NCBI RefSeq assembly: GCF_003935895.2
Contig: NZ_CP054058.1
Coordinates: forward strand, 2,895,177-2,959,176
Reading direction: 5' to 3'
Source: Scandinavium goeteborgense
GTDB lineage: Bacteria > Pseudomonadota > Gammaproteobacteria > Enterobacterales > Enterobacteriaceae
DNA: 64,000 nt
Shown: positions 1 through 11,808 of the stretch, piece after piece
Layout of the letters: each line of letters begins with the position of its first letter
Position numbering within the stretch: the stretch's first letter is position 1
The notes under the pieces: generated by a model
What the model was told of the DNA's origin: nothing
Database searches by the model: none
The model's input: only the letters and a program-made list of their open reading frames with translations
Translations under genes and position numbers: made by a program

Positions 1-75
1 TTTGATATTTACACCAAGTATTATGGTTGAAAATCAAAAGCTGAAAAATACAGATAAAGAGATGTAGGGAGAATG

Positions 76-525
76 ATGCAAATTTCTTTAAGAATCGCCA
101 CCAACGCTGATCTCGCCATCGTTAACGAGCGCTATGCTGAGATTGATTTTGTTCCGTCACTTGCAGGGGAACTAATCGTATTGGCGACTGATGGCGATAA
201 TATTGTTGGTCAAGGTAGAGTTGTAACAATCGATACAGAAAGCGGCGAGCTTGGGGGAATTTATGTTTTTCCCGGCAATGAGGGTCTGGGGATCGCCCGT
301 AAGGTGGTAGATTTCCTGATTAAGAACTCAGTTCTCCCAGTTCTTTACTGTTTACCTTTTGCTGAGCTGGAAGGTTTTTACGGCTCAATGGGATTTGGTC
401 CCGTCAAAGATATAGAGAAAATCCCACCGGCGGTTATCAAAAAGCATGAGTGGTGCCTGAGTAACTACGATAAAACCGTACTCCTTCTGAGTAAGGAGAT
501 GAACGTATGCAGATACTCAGACTAA
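76..525 (+). CDS. GNAT-family N-acetyltransferase
   Basis: A 149-150 residue protein with the layout of a small GNAT enzyme, which moves an acetyl group from acetyl-CoA to an amine; the substrate cannot be told. The central part holds the strand 'GGIYVFPGNEGLGIARKVVDF' region, matching the acetyl-CoA-binding motif A (roughly residues 80-100), and a later 'FAELEGFYGSMGFGPV' matches the usual 'a..fYek.GF' GNAT C-terminal strand. Two ATGs stand side by side at 73 and 76; the purine-rich AGGGAG at 66-71 touches the first, so the second has the better spacing and is chosen, though 73 is possible. Its 3' end overlaps the start of a truncated second GNAT (507), as in a two-gene operon that was later broken. 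Family assignment is secure, function is not. Confidence 0.8.
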   Translation: MQISLRIATNADLAIVNERYAEIDFVPSLAGELIVLATDGDNIVGQGRVVTIDTESGELGGIYVFPGNEGLGIARKVVDFLIKNSVLPVLYCLPFAELEGFYGSMGFGPVKDIEKIPPAVIKKHEWCLSNYDKTVLLLSKEMNVCRYSD

Positions 526-596
526 AAACAGATCGCTTGCTGTTAAAACCATTAGGCACCAGAAAGTGCTGTACTACCGACAGGTTAAAAAACTGA
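507..596 (+). pseudogene. Truncated start of a second GNAT gene
   Basis: ATG at 507 has a good ribosome site (AAGGAG, 493-498) and overlaps the end of the preceding GNAT by 19 nt. The first 16 residues (MQILRLKTDRLLLKPL) look like the N-terminus of a RimJ/RimL-type GNAT ('L.TeRLlLrpl'). After about position 554 the reading is lost and stops at 594-596, so only the first coding fragment of a former gene remains. The junction joins it to an unrelated fragment in another frame. Confidence 0.5.
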
Positions 597-703
597 ATAT
601 CCGGGAAACAGCAGATGCCACAGGCTATAGTTTCTCTCAAGTATGTAGCATCCAGACCCTTTACCGGCAGGCAGAACGCGTTACGACTAACGAGGTTTTA
701 TGA
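554..703 (+). pseudogene. 3' remnant of an HTH protein, possibly a resolvase/invertase tail
   Basis: In the frame ending with TGA at 701-703 there is an uninterrupted stretch of about 49 codons with a helix-turn-helix-like pattern (around 'LNIRETADATGYSFSQVC'), similar in style to the C-terminal HTH of serine recombinases. It has no start codon of its own and begins abruptly at the broken GNAT, so it is read as the 3' end of a deleted gene. Its stop overlaps the ATG of the next gene (ATGA at 700-703), suggesting former translational coupling. The family call is a guess from pattern only. Confidence 0.35.
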
Positions 704-1170
704 AAATCAGAAGGTTCACTAATGGGGATGAAATTGCGTTATTCAGGGTCTTTTTATCTTCTATACATACCATCGCATCACACTACTACACACATGAACA
801 AATAGAGGCCTGGGCTCCACCAGATATCGACCCGGAACAATGGGCCAATTACATGAAGGAGCTGCGCCCCTTTGTTGTTGAAGTGGATGGGGAAATAGCT
901 GGATATGCAGATGTTCAGCCGAATGGGTACATTGACCATTTCTTTGTCTCAGGAACCTACCCGAGACAGGGAGTAGGGACGCTACTGATGAATTGCATTC
1001 ATGAAGAAGCTAGACAACTTGGAATTGCTGAACTTACTTCAAATGTGAGTAAGGCTGCGGAAGAGTTCTTTCTACGGCACGGCTTTCATGTAGTGGAACG
1101 GGGTTTTCCTGTCCGTCGTGGCGTGACACTAGAAAATGCACTGATGCGGAAATATTTGGCGAAACAATAG
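700..1170 (+). CDS. GNAT acetyltransferase, YafP-like
   Basis: A 156-residue GNAT enzyme. The N-terminal 'IRRFTNGDEIALFRVFLSSIHTIAS', the 'YTHEQIEAWAPP' segment and 'YIDHFFVSGTYPRQGVGTLLM' (motif A, about residues 88-108, with the acetyl-CoA pyrophosphate loop R-Q-G-V-G) resemble E. coli YafP and its relatives; 'AAEEFFLRHGFHVVERG' gives the closing strand. YafP-type proteins have been linked to acetylation of small toxic amines, but the substrate here is unknown. The start overlaps the stop of the upstream HTH remnant. It lies in a run of acetyltransferase genes in an IS-rich accessory region. Confidence 0.82.
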   Translation: MKIRRFTNGDEIALFRVFLSSIHTIASHYYTHEQIEAWAPPDIDPEQWANYMKELRPFVVEVDGEIAGYADVQPNGYIDHFFVSGTYPRQGVGTLLMNCIHEEARQLGIAELTSNVSKAAEEFFLRHGFHVVERGFPVRRGVTLENALMRKYLAKQ

Positions 1171-1291
1171 AAAGCTGGCTGAAGAGAAGTATTGACCTTT
1201 TCGCCTGATTGAAATCACTCAATACAGAAAACCATCATAACGTACAATATTTTCCGTTTCCCAAACGGAGCCCAATTACGTCGGAGGGGAT

Positions 1292-1924
1292 ATGCAAGGT
1301 CCAGATCCACTAAATAAGCATCCAATGCTGGGGTTTCCTCAGGTTTGTTTCATCAAAAATACTGTGACGAATCCAAACATTATCATTGGCGATTTCACCT
1401 ATTACGATGACCCAGAAGACTCTGAGAATTTTGAACGAAATGTTCTGTATCACTTCCCTTTCATCGGTGACAGACTGGTTATCGGTAAATTTTGCGCTAT
1501 AGCAAAAGGTGTCCAGTTCATTATGAACGGTGCGAACCACAAGTTATCAGGCTTCTCTACGTTTCCTTTTTATATTTTCGGAAATGGATGGGAAAAGGCG
1601 ATGCCAAAGCCTGAAGATTTGCCGTACAAAGGCGATACGATAATCGGAAATGATGTCTGGATAGGTTACAAAGCGCTGATCATGCCTGGCGTGAAGATCG
1701 GCAACGGCGCGATTATTTCCTCCCAGGCTGTTGTCACCACCGACGTGCCTGCTTATACCATTGTCGGTGGAAACCCTGCAAAAGTGATTAAATCACGATT
1801 TCCAGATGAAATAGTATTCGAACTGGAAAAATTAGCGTGGTGGAATTGGTCTGTAGAAAAGATAACTAAACACCTCTCGGCAATAATGTCTAATGACATT
1901 AATACGCTTCTTACAATCGAGTAA
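1292..1924 (+). CDS. Vat/CatB-family xenobiotic O-acetyltransferase (left-handed beta-helix)
   Basis: A 210-residue hexapeptide-repeat acyltransferase of the family that includes Vat (streptogramin A) and CatB (chloramphenicol) O-acetyltransferases, which use acetyl-CoA to inactivate drugs. Seen here: N-terminal '[10 protein letters not shown]', the substrate loop '[21 protein letters not shown]', the catalytic histidine in 'MNGANH' (His83), '[12 protein letters not shown]', then repeats '[12 protein letters not shown]', '[13 protein letters not shown]' and the closing '[13 protein letters not shown]'. The length and loop are closer to Vat, especially chromosomal Vat(F)-like proteins of enterics, than to CatB. 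GGAGGGG at 1281-1287 sets the ATG. Whether it gives resistance cannot be read from sequence; Gram-negative hosts are usually insensitive to streptogramins anyway. Confidence 0.82.
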
Positions 1925-2410: not shown

Positions 2411-2677
2411 ATGCGTAAGATCCGATTCACCGAACACCAGATCATCGCCGTTCTGAAGTCTGTCGAAGCCGGGCGTACCGTCAAAGATGTGTGCCGCGAA
2501 GCCGCTATTTCCGAAGCCAGCTACTACAACTGGAAGGCGAAATATGGCGGGATGGAAGCCGCTGATATCAAAAAAATCAAAGATCTTGAGGACGAGAATC
2601 GTCGCCTCAAGCAGATGTTTGCCGATCTGAGTCTGGAATGCCGGGCGCTGAAGGACGTTATCGAAAAAAAGCTCTAA
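2411..2677 (+). CDS. IS3-family (IS407-group-like) transposase OrfA
   Basis: An 88-residue HTH protein: 'RFTEHQIIAVLKSVEAG' and 'VCREAAISEASYYNWKAKYGGM' form the DNA-binding helix-turn-helix, followed by a leucine-zipper-like 'DLEDENRRLKQMFADLSLE'. This layout is typical of OrfA of the IS407 group of IS3-family elements. ATG at 2411 is preceded by GAGGAG and fits the family start better than the in-frame ATG at 2390. The end (A7 followed by GCTC, about 2664-2674) is a plausible -1 slippery site feeding OrfB. OrfA is intact, but its partner OrfB is broken. Confidence 0.85.
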   Translation: MRKIRFTEHQIIAVLKSVEAGRTVKDVCREAAISEASYYNWKAKYGGMEAADIKKIKDLEDENRRLKQMFADLSLECRALKDVIEKKL

Positions 2678-3228
2678 AACCAGCGATAAAGCGGGAGCTT
2701 GTCAGCTATCTGACTGCACAATTTTCCATGAGCATCCGCCAGGCATGCAGGACAGTATCGCTGAGCAGGACGGTGTATTTTTATCAGCCCGATACCCGGC
2801 GTGATGAACCGGTGATCCTGGCGCTGACTGAACTGGCAGAACGCTATCCGCGATACGGATTTAAGAAGCTTTTTCAGGTACTTCGCAGGCAGGGTAACGC
2901 CTGGAATCATAAGCGTGTTCACCGGATTTACTGCCTGCTGAAACTCAATTTTCGCCGCAAGGGGAAACAACGTCTTCCGGTGCGCAATCCGGCTCCGCTG
3001 GCAACGCCGGAAGCACTCAACCAGAGCTGGTCGATTGATTTTATGCACGACGCGCTGACATGTGGCCGACGTTTTCGGACTTTTAACGTCGTGGATGATT
3101 TTAACCGCGAGGCTCTGGCCATAGAAATTGACCTGAATATCCCGGCGCAGCGGGTTGTGCGGGTGCTGGACAGGATAGTGGCAAACTGTAGTGGATCGGT
3201 AATTCAGGACACCTCGAAATCCTGTTAA
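2638..3228 (+). pseudogene. Interrupted IS3-family transposase OrfB (IS407-like)
   Basis: This frame, -1 relative to OrfA, encodes the N-terminal part of an IS3-family integrase: 'SIRQACRTVSLSRTVYFY', 'ERYPRYGFKKLFQVLRRQG' and the rve start 'NQSWSIDFMHDAL' with the first catalytic Asp. It is cut at 3186 by insertion of a second IS; the last 14 codons, to the stop before 3228, come from that insert. Beyond the insert only 'cgtggatat' (R-G-Y) of the expected continuation remains before unrelated sequence, so the second Asp and the Glu of the DDE triad are gone. The element cannot make an active transposase. Confidence 0.85.
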
Positions 3229-3256
3229 TGTTAAAACAGTGAACATGAGGTGATAC

Positions 3257-3574
3257 ATGATCAAAACTCGTCGGACTAAACGCACATTTTCCCCGGAGTT
3301 CAAACTCGAAGCTATCGAACAGGTTGTTAAATACCAGCGAGATGTACGGGAAGTTGCTCAGGCGCTCGAACTCAACCCTGACCATTTGCGCAAATGGATA
3401 CGGCTTTATAAGCAGGAACTTCTGGGTATTGAGCCCGTCGGCAATGCTATTACTCCTGAACAGCGCGAAATTCAGCAGCTTAAAGCGCAGATAAAACGTC
3501 TTGAGATGGAAAAAGAAATACTAAAGCAGGCTGCCGTGCTGATGAGCGAAGCCCCCGGAAAGTTATCGCGCTAA
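3257..3574 (+). CDS. IS3-family transposase OrfA
   Basis: A 105-residue protein with an HTH typical of IS3-family OrfA ('[44 protein letters not shown]', residues about 11-55) and a C-terminal heptad-rich coiled coil ('[26 protein letters not shown]'). GAGGTGAT lies just ahead of ATG 3257. OrfB is in the -1 frame and its homology begins about 3553, within the overlap, so a -1 frameshift in the C-rich stretch near 3551 would give the OrfAB fusion. Confidence 0.9.
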
Positions 3575-3600
3575 TCACACGGCTGAAAGCAAAGTGGCCT

Positions 3601-4422
3601 GTGCAGGTTCTTTGTCATTTATTCGGTATTCACCGTAGCGTTTATTACGCGCAGGTGAAGCATCCGGTTAATGTACAAAGAATTGCATTACGAAGTCGGG
3701 TGAGAGCACTGCATGCTCTCAGTCGTGGTGCTGCAGGGAGTCGGGCAATCAGCCAGATGTTACGCCAGAGTGGCGTTGATGCAGGCCGGTGGCTGGCGCG
3801 ACGACTGATGCAGGAATGCGGGCTGACCAGTCACCAGCCTGTTAAACATCGCTACCGAATAAATGAAGACAACAGTCCGGCATTGCCAAACTTATTGAAC
3901 CGGCAGTTTAACCCCGCCGCACCAAACCGCGTCTGGTGTGGCGATATCAGCTTTATTCGCCTGCAGGACAGGTGGTGCTATCTCGCGCTTGTTGTTGATT
4001 TATATTCACGCCGGATTATTGGTTCAGCCCTCTCATTAACCGCTGATGCTGATTTGGTATGCAGGGCTTTGCGTAATGCCCTGGAAACACGGCCGCGTAA
4101 TGAACGTCTTCTGTTTCATTCAGATCAAGGAGTTCAATATAAAAGTAATAAATACAGAAAGTTACTTTGGCGTTATGGGGTAATGCAAAGTATGAGTCGC
4201 AGAGGGAATTGTCTGGATAATTCGCCGATGGAAAGAGTCTTTCGCAGCCTTAAAAGTGAATGGCTTCCCAAAGGTGGTTATGGTGATTTTAGCCATGCGG
4301 TACTCGACATAAACCAGTGGATAAATGGTTATTACAACATGTACCGCCCTCATACGAACAATGGTGGATTATCGCCTTACCTGCATGAAGAAAAGTGGAA
4401 GCAGGTTATTCCGGTGTCCTGA
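3601..4422 (+). CDS. IS3-family transposase OrfB (DDE integrase domain)
   Basis: OrfB carries the HTH_21 region ('[30 protein letters not shown]') and an rve/integrase core with the catalytic acidic residues in '[12 protein letters not shown]', '[10 protein letters not shown]' and '[14 protein letters not shown]', ending '[19 protein letters not shown]'. The GTG at 3601 is only the first possible start; homology extends upstream in the same frame to about 3553 ('[15 protein letters not shown]'), meaning it is normally made as a frameshift fusion with OrfA. All three catalytic residues are present. It ends 17 bp before the end of the element. Confidence 0.92.
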
Positions 4423-4870: not shown

Positions 4871-4927
4871 CGGCGAGCCATTAGTTCAGTCAAATCGTCT
4901 GCTTAGTGCCAGGAGCGGGCATTGCTA
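4871..4927. repeat. Dispersed palindromic repeat, copy B
   Basis: This interval contains 'AAATCGTCTGCTTAGTGCCAG' followed by 'GAGCGGGCATT', closely matching the right half of copy C near 7708-7731 ('GTAGACTGCTTTGTGCCAG', 'GAGCGGATGTT') and the end of copy A. It is non-coding and lies between the hypothetical membrane ORF and the ATPase gene. Confidence 0.5.
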
Positions 4928-5088
4928 GCATCTATCTGCATCACCAGTGGGGGGCAGATCACATAAAGGGTGGAAACTGATGCCGCTGAAAGAGCACAGC
5001 ATTCGCTACTAGTGATATATTAACTGCATCCAAACGGAGTCGACACCAGAAACAAATCTCCTAGTAGGACAGTGCGCTAGTATTCATC

Positions 5089-5119
5089 TTGTTCTAATCT
5101 CAATCCGCTGTGGTAAAAT
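5089..5119 (+). promoter_or_regulatory. Possible promoter of the RloC-like ATPase gene
   Basis: TTGTTC (5089-5094) and TAAAAT (5114-5119) resemble -35 and -10 boxes, but the 19-nt spacer is long. They lie 21 nt before ATG 5141, which would give a very short leader with AAGGAA at 5130-5135. This is a weak match and unproven. Confidence 0.3.
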
Positions 5120-5140
5120 CGCGAAGAAAAAGGAATTTAT

Positions 5141-7432
5141 ATGCTTGAAAGAATTCATCAAATTACCAGCGTGGGTTTATTCCAGGATATCCGCCCTGCT
5201 GGTATGCCTTTTAAAAAAATGACCTTTGTCTATGCTGATAATGGGCGTGGTAAATCTACTCTTGCGTCTATTCTGCGTTCCTACACCGAATTAAATCCAG
5301 ATATTGTGCGGCACAGGAAAACGATTGGGGAAACACCCCCTCAAAATATTCATCTCCAGTTCTCTCAGGGAAATCGTGCGATATTTGATAACGGCACATG
5401 GAGTGGTAAGTATTCAGATGTACACGTCTTCGACTTAGATTTTGTTGATCGTAATGTTTACTCAGGTGGTGAAATCAGTGCTAGCCATAGAAAGCGACTG
5501 CTTAGTTTTGCGCTAGGCAATGATGCGGTAGCAGCGAGGGCTGCTTTTAATGATGCATCAGACAAGGCAGATGAGGCCAAGAGAGTTACGAGACTGGCAA
5601 GTGAAAAGCTGACGGTAGTCCGGGGAAATGTAACACTAGCAAGATACATAAAGCCTGTTCAGGAAGAGAACATTCAGGGAAAAATTGCATTAGTCGAATC
5701 AGAACTGGATCTCTGCAAGAGAGCAGAGACGATCCGTAACCGTACGGGCTATCTTCCGTTACCTCTGTACGCTCCTGATTTCAGTTCTTTTTTTTCCACA
5801 CTTGCATCCAGTTATGACAGCCTCAGCGCGGGTGCAGAAGAGGTCGTCTGTGCGCATATTGACCATATCAATGTCGAAGGTTTCGAGCGATGGGCGAGTA
5901 GCGGCCTTGATTATATAAAAGACGAACATTGTCCTTTCTGTACGCAAAGCCTAGAGGGTGTTGAACTGATCCGGTTCTACCGGGAGCGGTTTAACCTTGC
6001 ATACAAAACCTTACTTAATCAGGTTACAGGACTAGATAACGTTGTGGTGACAGCCATGCGCGTTTTCAATCTGGCTTTACTTGAGAGCAAGATTGAGCAG
6101 GCGGTTTTAGTGACTGAAAACTGGAAAGATTGTCTCCAGTTGAACGTGAGTCTCCCTGATTTAGATAAAATTAAAGCTAGTTTGGAAGGTCTTCAGTCAT
6201 CTCTGAGTCGCTTAGCGGAAGCCAAGAAAAGCGATCCGCTTTCAAAGACCCAAGGCGACTATGAAAAAGAAATCGCTGATGCAGTAACTGCAATCAATGA
6301 TGAGCTTTCTGCCTTTAATTCGGGGGTGGAAGCTGCCAATCTGGATATTCAGGCTTATAAAGAGACGCTTGAAACCAAAAATGAAGAAACACTGCGGGTT
6401 ACATTATCCCAACATGAAGCAACCCGACTTCGTCTATCACCTGAAGTAATAGGTTTTATCTCTGATTATCAGACCGCTAAAACAGCTGAAGTGGCGGCCT
6501 CTGAACTAAAGGAAATACGGAGAGGTGAACTGAATGCGATCATGGACTCGACCCTTGGAAAGTATCAATCCTCCATTAATGATTTATTGATGAAGTTTGG
6601 TGCAAGCTTTCGCATCACAGAAATAAATTATAACTATGCCGGCGGCGGTGAGCCTAAATCTGAATATGCAATTGAACTTAGAGGGGAAAAAATTTCGCTA
6701 ACGGGAGAGGAATCCAGTTTCCGAAGTTCACTCAGTGAAGGGGACAAAAGGACGCTAGCCTTTGCATTCTTCATCTCAGTGTTGCTTCATGATACTGATC
6801 TTGAAAGAAAAATTGTCGTGATTGATGACCCGATGTGTAGTCTGGACAGTCATCGCAGGAACCACACAATCACCATCATTAAACAGATTTACCTTCGCAG
6901 CTTGCAGGTAATCATCCTGGCACACGACCTGTTCTTTATCCGTAACATGCGAGATGAGTTCCTTAAAATACCTGCTACACAAATGCAGGACATTTCAGCC
7001 TTATGCATTGTCCACATTGCAGGTGATTTCAGTAACCTGGACAAGCTAGATGTCGATCTGGAATGTGAATCTCCCTACTATAAAAATCACCGGCTGGTGA
7101 GCGGATTTTCCGATGGTGTTCATCATCAGTTTCACGATACGGCGGTGGCAATCAGACCGCTTCTTGAGGGGTATCTGCATCGACGTTTTCCGGGGCGAAT
7201 TTCACCGGGAAATCTGTTTGGAGAGGTAGTCATGCAGATTGCACAAGCACAACCGGACGATCCGTTATTCTTCGCGAAATCACTGGTACCAGAATTGAAT
7301 GAAATTAACAATTATGCCGGTCGTTATCATCATGACACGAACCCTCAGGCATCATCAGAACCTATCACGCCAGGTGAACTGAAATCTTACTCTCGACGGG
7401 CTTTGAATGTGATTTATCGCGGGAACGCATGA
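5141..7432 (+). CDS. RloC/PrrC-like AAA_13 ATPase with zinc hook; candidate anticodon nuclease for phage defence
   Basis: A 763-residue ABC/Rad50-like ATPase of the AAA_13 type. Seen: Walker A 'YADNGRGKST' (31-40), a long polar alpha-helical region (about 130-480) broken by 'CPFC' (264-267), the Rad50-style zinc-hook motif, ABC signature 'SLSEGDKRTLAFAFF' (530-544), Walker B 'KIVVIDDP' (557-564), D-loop 'SLD' (568-570) and H-loop His595 ('LAHD'). The C-terminal domain holds R672-x3-E676 in 'AIRPLLEGYLHRRFP' and His730/His731 in 'NYAGRYHHD', the R-x3-E...H spacing style of PrrC/RloC anticodon nucleases. RloC proteins are stand-alone, have a zinc hook and cut tRNA anticodons when activated, for instance by DNA damage. 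There are no hsd genes nearby, which fits RloC rather than PrrC. Family membership is firm; nuclease activity is inferred. AT-rich composition suggests transfer. Confidence 0.75.
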   Translation: MLERIHQITSVGLFQDIRPAGMPFKKMTFVYADNGRGKSTLASILRSYTELNPDIVRHRKTIGETPPQNIHLQFSQGNRAIFDNGTWSGKYSDVHVFDLDFVDRNVYSGGEISASHRKRLLSFALGNDAVAARAAFNDASDKADEAKRVTRLASEKLTVVRGNVTLARYIKPVQEENIQGKIALVESELDLCKRAETIRNRTGYLPLPLYAPDFSSFFSTLASSYDSLSAGAEEVVCAHIDHINVEGFERWASSGLDYIKDEHCPFCTQSLEGVELIRFYRERFNLAYKTLLNQVTGLDNVVVTAMRVFNLALLESKIEQAVLVTENWKDCLQLNVSLPDLDKIKASLEGLQSSLSRLAEAKKSDPLSKTQGDYEKEIADAVTAINDELSAFNSGVEAANLDIQAYKETLETKNEETLRVTLSQHEATRLRLSPEVIGFISDYQTAKTAEVAASELKEIRRGELNAIMDSTLGKYQSSINDLLMKFGASFRITEINYNYAGGGEPKSEYAIELRGEKISLTGEESSFRSSLSEGDKRTLAFAFFISVLLHDTDLERKIVVIDDPMCSLDSHRRNHTITIIKQIYLRSLQVIILAHDLFFIRNMRDEFLKIPATQMQDISALCIVHIAGDFSNLDKLDVDLECESPYYKNHRLVSGFSDGVHHQFHDTAVAIRPLLEGYLHRRFPGRISPGNLFGEVVMQIAQAQPDDPLFFAKSLVPELNEINNYAGRYHHDTNPQASSEPITPGELKSYSRRALNVIYRGNA

Positions 7433-7488
7433 GAAGTTCTTGATCGGGCATCACCTCATACTTAGAAGATCAACCGCACATTTGAAAG

Positions 7489-7508
7489 TGAGCCCTCTTG
7501 GGGGCTCA
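7489..7508. terminator. Hairpin after the RloC-like gene
   Basis: TGAGCCC (7489-7495) and GGGCTCA (7502-7508) form a perfect 7-bp stem with a 6-nt loop, 57 bp after the stop codon. No run of T follows, so intrinsic termination is uncertain. Confidence 0.35.
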
Positions 7509-7659
7509 TACCGATTATAAGCACTACCGCCGGTGCAAACGCTTCGTTGTGAATATTCTCTTAAGGAACACCCATCTCCAAAAGTGATATTAGAATATGG
7601 GAGCTACATGAGCAGTGCCAGTAAGGGATGTTTAATGTAAACACTCAGTCGTCATAAAC

Positions 7660-7733
7660 TAAACGTCCGCTTCTCGCTCAGAGCGGCTTGTGGCCGTTAC
7701 CGTAGACTGCTTTGTGCCAGGAGCGGATGTTGG
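7660..7733. repeat. Dispersed palindromic repeat, copy C (fullest copy)
   Basis: 'AACGTCCGCTTCTCGCTC' is followed by 'AGAGCGGCTTGTGGCCGTTA' and then 'GACTGCTTTGTGCCAGGAG' plus 'CGGATGTT'. The outer arms GTCCGCTT and AGCGGAT and the inner CGCTC/GAGCG are partly self-complementary. Copies A, B and D match different halves of this unit, so it serves as the reference copy in the window. Confidence 0.5.
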
Positions 7734-8014
7734 TTCAGCGATGCTTTTGTCCATCCAAGGATTCCAGCGCTCAATCCCTGAACGTACTTTGATAACCTCC
7801 AGCACCCTATATTCAACAACGTACTGACTGATTTTTTTGAGGTGAGAAAACCACGACCGCCCCACAGATTGCAGATATGATGATTTCGAATAACTCCCTC
7901 AGGGCCGTTTAAATTTGCTCTCGGGACAACTTTAACTGATGCAATTGTACACAGAACTTCGAACCCCCTTAACTTTGTGTTAAATTTCAAGGATGATTAT
8001 AATTGGAGGTCGTT

Positions 8015-8524
8015 ATGAAAATTGATTATGACGTAAGTCTTTACAGAGAAATCGCAAATTTTAGTGTAAATAAAGTAGTTCAAGTATCTAATAGCAAAGG
8101 TAGAAAAAGCACTATCCATATCACAAATATAACGCAACTTTCGTGGCAAAGTTTGCAATTACTAGTGTCCAGTGGTTCAGATAGATTTAGTAAAATGGTA
8201 TTTCTCTACCGAGAGTATTCCCAGACGGGACAGATTCCTGAGTCAGTTATTAGAGGTAAATCTCTTTCTTCGAATGAAACTAAGGAAATCAACGAGTACA
8301 TAAAAATTTATCGAGAGCATAGTTGCACGAAACACCACGAAGTTAACGATATTATAACCAAGAACAGATTGTGGGATAATTTCAAAACTATTCGTTCGTT
8401 AAACGATCATGGTAAGTTTAAAGGAATTGAAGGTATTCAGCCGCAATACTTTGAGATTATTTGTAATATTCTTAAAATTTTTGGAGGTAAAGGCTTACCA
8501 CTTGATGGCTATCAAAAGTATTAA
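8015..8524 (+). CDS. Hypothetical protein, AT-rich orphan
   Basis: A 169-residue protein of unknown function. GGAGG at 8005-8009 sits 5 nt before ATG 8015, a clear start; the in-frame TTG at 8003 lies within that ribosome site and is rejected. The sequence begins 'MKIDYDVSLYREIANFSVNKVVQVSN', is soluble, rich in Lys, Asn, Ser and Ile, with no signal peptide, membrane segment or recognised motif. Codon use is much more AT-rich than in the core genes, as for an acquired gene. It is separated from the RloC-like gene by 580 bp, so co-transcription is not evident. Confidence 0.6.
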   Translation: MKIDYDVSLYREIANFSVNKVVQVSNSKGRKSTIHITNITQLSWQSLQLLVSSGSDRFSKMVFLYREYSQTGQIPESVIRGKSLSSNETKEINEYIKIYREHSCTKHHEVNDIITKNRLWDNFKTIRSLNDHGKFKGIEGIQPQYFEIICNILKIFGGKGLPLDGYQKY

Positions 8525-8824: not shown

Positions 8825-10165
8825 TCATCCTGATTTGTCCCTGTCAGCCTTCTTTCTGGGTAACTTCGGTGGTTTTACAGGGGACATACTTTGCGTTCTG
8901 CGTGTATTCCAAGGATGATCGGCTGCCGGTTTAACATAGAACTTCGAACGCAGGTCGAAACGCGCATTCTCAACCCGCTCATGAACACTCTTCTCGTCAT
9001 CAAGAGGTAAGGGCTCAGGCCCATCCACATATTTCTCACAGCCAAGTTCCCGGCTGTCGTGCAACACCGTAATCTCTCCCTGAAAATTCTCACAAACCGT
9101 GACGAGCGCATGCCTGAGTCGGTAACCCTGCCCTTCTGAGCGGATCTGATACGCGCAGGTTTTGTACTGGAACGTCAGGTTCTTGGACAACACACGGCGG
9201 GCCTGATAGGAGAGAATGTAATTCAGTTCTTCCGGAGTGTGATGAATGTCCCGATGGGCATTACCGCCTTCCCGGGGCTGGGATGCAAAGCGGTCATTGT
9301 AATCTTTCACGAATTCAGGCAGCCAGGCGTTAGCCGTTTCGATATCACTGATATGACGAAGTCGCAGCTCTTTAACCAGCCTGTCCTGCAACGTCTGATT
9401 AGCCCGTTCAACCCGACCTTTAGCCTGCGGGGTGTTAGCATGAATCGGCGCTATGCCAAGCGTTTTCACGGCGCGGGTGAACTGCGTCAGCTCACCTTCC
9501 CTTTCCGGGTTATTAACACGGAAAATACTGTGCCGATCTGAATACAGGGCGAGAGGGAGTCCATGGTTGCCGAGATAATCTCGCAGCGTTTCCATATAAG
9601 CGCGGGTGGTTTCGGCCGGGGCGAACCGAAGGGCCATCAACGCACTGGTAGCATCATCGATAAAGACGATCAGCGTGCAGCGCGGCCCCCGTGTTTCGAA
9701 CCAGTCATGCGGAGAGCCATCAATCTGGATCAGCTCCCCATAGCAAGGGCGGCGCTGCCGCCGCTGATAAATACGGGCAATTTTACGACGACGCTCTCGC
9801 CACAGTCCCTCCTCAACCATCCACTTACGCAATGTCTCAGCGGATAGCGCCAGCCCGTGAATTTCCCGCAGCTTCTCGCTGGCGAAGGTGGGCCCAAAAT
9901 CCGGGTATTTATCCCTGACAAGCGAGATAACGAGTGAGCGAAACTCAGGCGAGAAAGCATTATTGGGACGTTTCCCGCGACGACGGGAAACCAGGCCCTG
10001 AGGACCTTCAATCCGGTATCGTTGAACAAGACGTTTGACCTGCCGGACCGAAATACCAATTCGCTCCGCAGCCTGGTCCTGAGTGATGTGGCGGCTGACC
10101 GACTCCCGAATAATCTGGAGCCGATCGAGCTCTTTGTGACTCATGCTAATTATCTCTTTTGCCAT
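8825..10165 (-). CDS. ISNCY-type (IS1202-like) transposase
   Basis: A 446-residue DDE transposase: N-terminal HTH ('ITQDQAAERIGISVRQVKRLVQRYR') and a second HTH ('ALSAETLRKWMVEEGLW'), then an integrase core with acidic residues in 'GELIQIDGSPHDWF', 'ALYSDRHSIFR' and 'KGRVERANQTLQ', and a basic tail ending 'KPPKLPRKKADRDKSG'. This matches transposases filed as ISNCY, IS1202 group. The start is the ATG whose complement is at 10163-10165, because GGGGAGG stands just upstream; the longer reading to 10213 has no such site. The frame is intact. Inverted repeats were not located, and an IS3-family element lies only 54 bp upstream of the start, so the element's right end may be damaged. Confidence 0.82.
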   Translation of the reverse strand: MAKEIISMSHKELDRLQIIRESVSRHITQDQAAERIGISVRQVKRLVQRYRIEGPQGLVSRRRGKRPNNAFSPEFRSLVISLVRDKYPDFGPTFASEKLREIHGLALSAETLRKWMVEEGLWRERRRKIARIYQRRQRRPCYGELIQIDGSPHDWFETRGPRCTLIVFIDDATSALMALRFAPAETTRAYMETLRDYLGNHGLPLALYSDRHSIFRVNNPEREGELTQFTRAVKTLGIAPIHANTPQAKGRVERANQTLQDRLVKELRLRHISDIETANAWLPEFVKDYNDRFASQPREGGNAHRDIHHTPEELNYILSYQARRVLSKNLTFQYKTCAYQIRSEGQGYRLRHALVTVCENFQGEITVLHDSRELGCEKYVDGPEPLPLDDEKSVHERVENARFDLRSKFYVKPAADHPWNTRRTQSMSPVKPPKLPRKKADRDKSG

Positions 10166-10219
10166 GAAATATCCTCCCCAAAATACGATGGGTGACATTT
10201 CAGATTTGGTCAAAGGAGG

Positions 10220-11808
10220 TGCGGACGAATTCCTGGACTCTCAGGAGTCACTTTATGCATTCATACGAAGACCGGATCAAAGCGGTTGAACTCTATTACC
10301 GATACGGAAAGAAAACCTCCGTCGTCGTCAGAGAGCTGGGATATCCGTCCACAAAACAGTTGGGCCGCTGGGTTCGGATTTATGAAGAGACCGGTGATTT
10401 ACCCAGAGATTTAAAGCCAAGAGAGCGCTATTCACGCGCTCAGAAAATTGCTGCGGTTGAGCATTACCTCACGCACGGTGGATGCCTGTCGTTCACTCGT
10501 CGCGCCATCGGTTACCCCAGCAACGAGGTTCTCAAATCCTGGATTCAGGAGTTTTACCCGAACAGCCGTCCTCTGGTCATTCGTTCAGGTACAAACAAAT
10601 GCTTCAGTCCGGAAGAGAGAGTTCATGCTGTCAGGGCGCTCTGCAGCCGGCGCGGAACCGCGCGTAAAGTTGCACAAAACATAGGTGTCAGCGTTCCGGT
10701 CCTGTACAAATGGAAGAAAGACCTTATCAGTGACGAGGCTTATCAATCCATGCGCAAACGTAACGTAGCCCCTCAGGATAAAAATCAGGATGCTTTGCTT
10801 GGTGAAATCCAGCACCTCAGACAACAGATTCATCAGCTGCAGCTCGAACGTGACCTACTGACAAAAGCGAATGAACTGATAAAAAAAGACATGGGCATCA
10901 GCCTTCTGACCCTGAAGAACAGGGAGAAAACCCAGATCGTTGATGCCCTTAAGGAAACGTATCCCGTTGCTGAATTACTTAGTGTTCTGCAACTTGCCCG
11001 CAGCTGCTATTTTTACCACAAAGCAAGCCAGCGCCTGCGTGATAAGTATGCGGAAATACGCGTGATCATGGCTGATATCTTTGAAGAGAATTACCGCTGT
11101 TATGGCTACCGGCGTCTTCACGCGATGCTTCGTGGTAACAACAGGGTTATTTCTGAGAAGATCGTCCGCAGACTGATGGCAGAAGAACAGCTCGTTGTTA
11201 AGCGTACGAGGCGGCGGCGATACAGCTCTTACTGTGGAGAAATCAGCCCGGCACCGGAAAATCTACTCGCCCGGGATTTTAGTTCCTGCAGGCCAAATGA
11301 AAAGTGGCTGACCGATATTACCGAGTTCCAGCTTCCGGCTGGAAAAGTCTATCTGTCGCCGGTTATCGACTGCTTTGATGGCCAGGTAGTGAGCTGGTCG
11401 ATAGGAACACGCCCGGACGCGGTGCTGGTGAATACCATGCTCGATGATGCGGTCAATACGCTCAACGAAAATGAAAAACCGGTGATACACAGCGACCGGG
11501 GGGGGCATTATCGATGGCCAGGTTGGCTTGATCGTATCAATACATCCGGACTTATAAGGTCCATGTCGCGCAAAGGATGCTCGTCGGATAATGCGGCGTG
11601 TGAAGGCTTCTTCGGGCGGGTCAAAAATGAAATGTTCTATGGCAGAAACTGGGCGGGAATAACACTGGAAAAATTTATCCGCTTCCTGGACAGATACATA
11701 CGCTGGTATAACGAGAAGCGTATCAAGTTATCATTAGGTGCAATGAGCCCGGTGAAGTACCGACAGCATCTTGGGATCACAACATAACAGTCCAGGAAAA
11801 CATCCGCA
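10220..11808 (+). mobile_element. Single-ORF IS3-family insertion sequence next to aspC
   Basis: The ends form inverted repeats: left TGCGGAC...TTCCTGGACT at 10220-10239 and right, read inwards on the other strand, TGCGGAT...TTCCTGGACT at 11789-11808. Both start TG. The length is 1589 bp. Flanking triplets differ (AGG at 10217-10219, GCC at 11809-11811), so there is no target duplication. One flank belongs to the ISNCY element region and the other to the aspC leader. Its transposase gene points towards aspC. Confidence 0.88.
10255..11787 (+). CDS. IS3-family transposase, single long ORF (IS150-like)
   Basis: A 510-residue transposase in one frame rather than OrfA/OrfB. The N-terminal half has repeated HTH units ('RIKAVELYYRYGKKTSVVVRELGYPS', 'KIAAVEHYLTHGGCLSFTRRAIGYPS', 'RVHAVRALCSRRGTARKVAQNIGVS') and a leucine-rich coiled coil; the C-terminal half is an rve core with the acidic residues in 'KWLTDITEFQL', 'VIHSDRGGHYR' and 'AACEGFFGRVKNE'. 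ATG 10255 ('MHSYEDRIKAVELYY') is chosen because the longer reading from 10192 would start outside the element's left inverted repeat. No frameshift signal is needed, and the copy looks functional. Confidence 0.9.
   Translation: MHSYEDRIKAVELYYRYGKKTSVVVRELGYPSTKQLGRWVRIYEETGDLPRDLKPRERYSRAQKIAAVEHYLTHGGCLSFTRRAIGYPSNEVLKSWIQEFYPNSRPLVIRSGTNKCFSPEERVHAVRALCSRRGTARKVAQNIGVSVPVLYKWKKDLISDEAYQSMRKRNVAPQDKNQDALLGEIQHLRQQIHQLQLERDLLTKANELIKKDMGISLLTLKNREKTQIVDALKETYPVAELLSVLQLARSCYFYHKASQRLRDKYAEIRVIMADIFEENYRCYGYRRLHAMLRGNNRVISEKIVRRLMAEEQLVVKRTRRRRYSSYCGEISPAPENLLARDFSSCRPNEKWLTDITEFQLPAGKVYLSPVIDCFDGQVVSWSIGTRPDAVLVNTMLDDAVNTLNENEKPVIHSDRGGHYRWPGWLDRINTSGLIRSMSRKGCSSDNAACEGFFGRVKNEMFYGRNWAGITLEKFIRFLDRYIRWYNEKRIKLSLGAMSPVKYRQHLGITT

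Follow-up and report, generated by a model that had tools for sequence, protein, structure and literature searches.

RloC, described from G. kaustophilus and A. baylyi, is a Rad50-like ATP-binding cassette (ABC) ATPase with a coiled coil and a CxxC zinc hook. It is defined by a C-terminal R-x3-E-x36-52-H motif, in which Ser often precedes the His, and is seldom linked to type I restriction-modification (R-M) systems (PMC2610378). The same and another study report that all three residues of the triad are required, that mutations in the hook alter regulation, that linear DNA activates RloC whereas circular DNA does not, and that the tRNA wobble nucleotide is excised (PMC2610378, PMC3874168). PrrC, likewise an ABC ATPase with a C-terminal R-x3-E...H, accompanies a type I R-M enzyme, and a further study proposes that prophage-borne ABC-HEPN proteins are anti-phage (Anantharaman et al., 2013; PMC3710099). 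Does such an ABC-HEPN switch sense phage DNA alone, or is it the guardian of a restriction system? This question becomes testable with a gene in a 64,000-nucleotide stretch of Scandinavium goeteborgense DNA (NZ_CP054058.1, positions 2,895,177 to 2,959,176; the window in the following), a single protein whose close copies occur across several kinds of mobile element and whose relatives are found with or without R-M partners. The gene is real, intact and mobile and comes from a distinct ABC-HEPN branch, a widespread group of Rad50-like putative ribonucleases on which no experiment was recognised in the literature searched (Brenes and Laub, 2025, lies outside that literature). Architecture, an invariant triad, a predicted HEPN-like fold and RloC-type homology, together with purifying selection, mobility and the defence-linked surroundings of relatives, suggest that its product is probably a stand-alone, horizontally moved defence protein that cuts RNA via R672, E676 and H731 and acts by abortive infection; its trigger is best read as DNA or phage signals and not as type I R-M guardianship. 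An earlier note on this DNA had taken the protein for a stand-alone RloC/PrrC-like ATPase and candidate anti-phage tRNA nuclease; its observation is confirmed and its interpretation, overall, partly supported. The gene and the parts of its product are the following.

5141..7432, plus strand: ABC ATPase-HEPN protein of 763 amino acids, intact; the AlphaFold2 model has a mean predicted local distance difference test (pLDDT) score of 88.2.
5234..5260, plus strand: Walker A ADNGRGKST, residues 32-40, from the family alignment, with A32 the commonest residue.
5480..6595, plus strand: residues 114-485 with the coiled-coil arms and the hook region, modelled as long helices.
5930..5941, plus strand: zinc-hook motif C264-P-F-C267, each Cys in 93/93 family proteins.
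6731..6751, plus strand: ABC signature LSEGDKR, residues 531-537, from the family alignment.
6812..6847, plus strand: Walker B and D-loop, residues 558-569, with D562, D563, P564, S567 and D569 in 93/93.
6923..6925, plus strand: H-loop histidine H595, in 92/93.
7067..7429, plus strand: HEPN-like helical domain, residues 643-763, from predicted structure and structural matches.
7154..7168, plus strand: R672-x3-E676, in 93/93, with the RloC-type R-x3-E in register.
7328..7333, plus strand: H730-H731, H731 in 93/93 and H730 in 90/93.

The open reading frame (ORF) begins with ATG and is free of internal stops. Among three close copies the ratio of nonsynonymous to synonymous substitution rates (dN/dS, NG86) is about 0.14-0.17; the gene is kept by purifying selection. 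With 44.6% guanine plus cytosine (GC) in the gene against 52.8% for the window, the AT-rich composition named in the earlier note is a relative one. Conservation was counted over 93 aligned proteins, namely the window protein and those of 92 of the 96 fetched loci, after three with internal stops (L038, L053, L100) and a truncated one (L063) had been dropped; two 90-row alignments, A2 and A3, omit L094, L095 and L099. The Rad50-like ATPase with Walker A, signature, Walker B and H-loop that the earlier note had recognised is borne out by a Pfam match to AAA_13 (5e-39) and by key residues present in 90-93 of the 93 proteins, as is the CPFC hook by its two cysteines. N34, G37, K38, T40, S532 and D535 are likewise found in 93/93 and G534 in 90/93. 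The suspicion that A32 is an unusual Walker A residue did not hold: Ala occupies this position in 69 proteins, Gly in 20 and Ser in 4, which rules it out as the mark of a degenerate Walker A. Among PADLOC models the protein is matched best by PDC-S06 model PDLC04895 (7.3e-71, covering residues 1-688; the model's own cut-off is unstated by the tool), a prediction label that spans several ABC-HEPN groups and that one paper has in a table of predicted systems; weaker matches are LmuB (3.1e-15), PrrC and others. In PHROGs the best match, phrog_2801, has no assigned function, and the C-terminal domain alone gave no match there.

Modelled by itself, the C-terminal domain reaches a pLDDT of 94, and its best structural likeness is to HEPN ribonucleases; in this predicted model the domain resembles the HEPN helical-bundle fold. 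The full-length structure comparison (VIA list) shows heads of the Rad50/SMC/RecF/RecN kind and is therefore uninformative on the HEPN part. The HEPN motif R-x4-6-H occurs in only 2 of the 93 family proteins. Within residues 600-763, R672, E676, G694 and H731 are the invariant columns and there are no others, which places the R/E/H triad above chance. Since H731 is present in all proteins and H730 in 90, H731 is the better candidate for catalysis; of the pattern R672-x3-E676 plus His730/731 proposed earlier, R672, E676 and H731 thus stand, whereas H730 is not invariant. The spacing E-x54-H is found in 71/93 (x53 when counted to H730 in the window protein).

Profile alignment with hhalign connects this domain to RloC-type proteins. 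The family C-terminus scores 38.5 (E 1.6e-5) against 19 RloC-type C-termini, where 100 column shuffles reach at most 18.0, and R, E and H are aligned in register. RloC-type C-termini in turn score 47.9 against those of 15 PrrC proteins (shuffles at most 17.9), whereas the direct comparison of the family with PrrC is not significant (14.6, shuffles up to 21.0). On these profiles the family appears linked to PrrC solely through RloC-type proteins. The profiles took in 15 of 16 PrrC and 19 of 20 RloC-type proteins, the others lacking a recognised motif; the RloC-type set was picked by AAA_13 match plus motif, and no member was recognised as a characterised RloC. With earlier, smaller profiles the RloC-type comparison scored 33.6 for group I (the highest of 40 shuffles being 17.2), 23.6 for group II by itself (E 0.0049, a value without shuffles) and 34.9 for the two groups together (shuffles up to 15.8); the PrrC comparison scored 11.7 (shuffles up to 21.3). 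Sequence searches of the PDB with one PrrC and with the APEC protein discussed below found no match. On a quickly built, midpoint-rooted tree with long branches, six RloC-type proteins separate from the other 101 with a Shimodaira-Hasegawa-like approximate likelihood ratio test (SH-aLRT) value of 100.

The window protein shares with RloC and RloC-type AAA_13 proteins the Rad50-like ATPase, the coiled coil, the CxxC hook, the C-terminal R-x3-E...H and matching domain profiles. It differs in that His-His replaces Ser/Thr-His, and in an E-x54-H spacing against E-x36-44-H in the RloC-type set (L144 is ambiguous). With x54 and a preceding His the protein falls outside the published RloC motif, although R, E and H themselves are invariant; two RloC-type proteins, L123 and L124, approach the published geometry of G. 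kaustophilus RloC (C291, R692, E696, H737). Because of the separate clade, the His-His pair and the wider spacing the window protein is not RloC sensu stricto: by anatomy it works like RloC, yet it is not classed as RloC. PrrC orthologues are shorter (371-433 amino acids) and the four examined have no CxxC, in contrast to the 763-residue window protein with its hook; one orthologue, L114, has R320, E324 and H356, the published PrrC triad. The APECO1_4465-type ABC-HEPN protein (PMC3710099) is prophage-borne, as are close copies of the window gene. An AAA gene of APEC O1 between replication endonuclease and portal genes was equated with APECO1_4465 by position alone, which is unconfirmed; its product shows RGSH in its C-terminus and has PDLC04886 as its best PADLOC model, as opposed to PDLC04895.

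How does the gene move? Among 5426 complete E. coli genomes it is present in eight, with a DNA identity of 93% in seven of them and 85% in the other; one of the eight copies is interrupted by IS1A. In the two loci viewed fully it sits in lambdoid prophages between DUF977 and hokD, and a query that spans this slot is covered to 80% or more in each of the eight genomes. Other cargo of the slot comprises a PDC-S39 candidate, DUF5677, QueH, an alpha/beta hydrolase and a protein whose match to HEPN_RES_NTD1 falls short of the cut-off (40 of 5193 records were listed and five viewed; one of five scanned cargo proteins matches PADLOC). This variety of cargo was seen at L003:14306-18200 and in matching E. 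coli prophages. A conjugative plasmid of Erwinia billingiae carries a copy at 94% protein identity, a viral contig (L093, labelled lambdoid on the tree, though its neighbourhood is a tail-fibre region with EcoRII genes) has a 93% copy adjoining a DNA methyltransferase and the EcoRII restriction enzyme, and in L095 a 91% copy adjoins portal and terminase genes. Relatives of 46-47% identity (L096-L099) have a replication-nicking gene on one side and a portal gene on the other; neighbour families were confirmed for L095 and L097, the other rows by BLAST to them. The surroundings of L095-L099 are presumably P2-type prophages. A tblastn search of 50,697 phage records gave no match.

More distant relatives are scattered and in part associated with R-M genes. 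In 295 sampled genomes of the family three matches at E <= 1e-20 were found, namely the window's own genome, a full-length protein at 24% identity and a partial one with a stop. Profile searches gave 80 loci in bacterial genomes of several phyla (the best 80 of 226 relatives) and 16 in viral contigs. With neighbours called by BLAST to exemplars with checked families, a DUF2130 gene lies upstream in 16/96 loci, 15 ending less than 200 bp away on the same strand and one touching, and the available stretch includes a type III Mod-like gene in 15 loci and a Res-like gene in 11 (all raw counts). DUF2130 upstream is combined with Mod and Res downstream in seven loci (L016, L018, L020, L025, L028, L040, L044), four of which (L016, L020, L025, L028) additionally hold a DrmD-like helicase, and the L016 row also contains a small nucleotidyltransferase. 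For the grouped rows a single change on the tree accounts for the DUF2130-linked proteins; the unlabelled L021 and L024 fall inside the branch. The row of DrmD-like helicase, DUF2130, ABC-HEPN and type III Mod and Res is possibly a composite defence system; papers naming DUF2130 include, judging by titles, none on phage defence. Among plasmid relatives one (L008) has a KAP NTPase and a TIR-domain gene in its vicinity, one is near DUF262 and BsuBI/PstI genes and one near N-6 methylases; for two further ones no R-M gene is listed in the surrounding 6 kb.

The window gene itself has no R-M gene among the ORFs scanned around it (ORFs beyond 14 kb lay outside the scan); the earlier statement that none are nearby thus holds for the scanned flanks, whereas relatives do adjoin such genes. 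Guardians acting in trans from elsewhere in the genome were considered and rejected. No type I HsdR (HsdR_N) was detected in the window's whole genome, in a search positive in 9/14 control genomes, nor was any type I enzyme of the kind that accompanies PrrC detected among the scanned flanking ORFs. Type III Mod is represented in its genome by just two 49-residue stretches of 28-30 bits and no full Mod, and DUF2130 was not detected there by a search positive on G839 and G840.

For the ATP switch, the trigger, the cutting of RNA, the tRNA target and the role in defence we infer the following course. The Rad50-like head would bind and hydrolyse ATP, and the arms with their zinc hook would join two heads, as in Rad50 and RloC. 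The C-terminal HEPN domain would be kept inactive by the ATPase in a resting cell until a signal brought about by the phage, most likely DNA that is linear or broken, as in RloC, sets off the ATP cycle. The HEPN domain would then cut RNA through R672, E676 and H731, most likely in tRNA anticodon loops, translation would halt and the infection would be aborted. This ATP-gated release of a HEPN ribonuclease is carried over, by homology and anatomy, from RloC. Tentatively, one may also picture the family as a third class of ABC-HEPN guardian next to PrrC and RloC. One of its branches would belong to a multi-gene barrier of DrmD-like helicase, DUF2130, ABC-HEPN and type III Mod and Res, whereas the enterobacterial branch that includes the window protein would do without such partners, travel between prophage slots and plasmids, sense phage DNA itself and cut RNA at a His-His active site that differs from the Ser-His of RloC and PrrC.

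The same ribonuclease might act on another target, be it mRNA, rRNA or tRNA outside the anticodon. HEPN ribonucleases such as RNase LS cut mRNA (PMC3710099), and the His-His pair, the longer E-to-H spacing than in RloC-type and PrrC sets and the clade of its own mean that substrate contacts may differ; as the characterised relatives to which sequence leads (RloC, and PrrC via RloC-type proteins) are anticodon nucleases, we consider this possible and less probable than cutting of the anticodon loop. A role in DNA repair, as an SMC-like protein, or as a Lamassu-like sensor, with a C-terminal bundle that is structural and not a nuclease, would fit the nearest solved heads (Rad50, SMC, RecF), the Lamassu LmuB chains among the Foldseek matches and the PADLOC match to LmuB. 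Yet the polar triad is invariant within an otherwise variable bundle, the best structural matches of that bundle are HEPN, and presence is sporadic, in 3/295 family genomes, which makes such a role very improbable.

Alternatively the gene could maintain its prophage or plasmid, as a self-regulated toxin or a superinfection-exclusion factor that guards the carrier element and not the cell. Its close copies on a lambdoid prophage, a portal/terminase contig and a conjugative plasmid, and hokD downstream in E. coli, would suit this. It is nevertheless unlikely, given that the gene also resides in the window's chromosomal island of insertion sequences (IS) and near EcoRII genes, and that no further gene able to serve as antitoxin is present in the block common to window, E. 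coli and Erwinia; superinfection exclusion is itself defence, so this explanation overlaps with that of the stand-alone defence protein. The extent of the block and the elements flanking the gene are as follows.

5012..7575, plus strand: block common with E. coli prophages, about 92% identity.
4896-7686, plus strand: block common with the Erwinia plasmid, in two pieces.
4899..4918, plus strand: left copy of a 20-nucleotide direct repeat flanking the module.
7707..7726, plus strand: right copy of the same repeat, flanking the module.
7489..7508, plus strand: hairpin TGAGCCC...GGGCTCA, aligned by eye with a hand-counted position.

The two repeat copies are 95% identical, and the flanks in E. coli and Erwinia retain the left one; the genome has five copies with at most 2 mismatches, a third one lying some 705 bp to the left of where the window begins. 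The hairpin also lies 3' of the gene in four aligned close copies, one with a shorter stem; it has no T run and is absent from the terminator scan's list. A scan for consensus promoters found 6 promoter-like sites where shuffled sequence gave 6.2, and none of them precedes the gene. The IS-rich setting described earlier is confirmed by integrase-core transposase domains at 2638-4422 and 10192-11787, on either side of the gene, and by the minus-strand ORF 8825-10213, which has helix-turn-helix domains in Pfam and lies inside a region that matches a transposase annotated as IS1202-like. The ORF at 8003-8524, considered as a partner, was rejected: it has no family match and lies outside the block common to E. 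coli and Erwinia.

The 3' flank of the gene (window 7484-7680) has matches in 262 E. coli genomes; for 255 the identity is 60-80%, and each of the ten listed shows 78.1%. In L169, the sole locus viewed, the match is near fim and restriction endonuclease genes, and a search there for a gene remnant, the only one tried, gave no convincing match. At the left end of the window (73-1924) stand three consecutive acetyltransferase-type genes, two GNAT, the first of them slightly under its Pfam cut-off, and one of the hexapeptide-repeat type.
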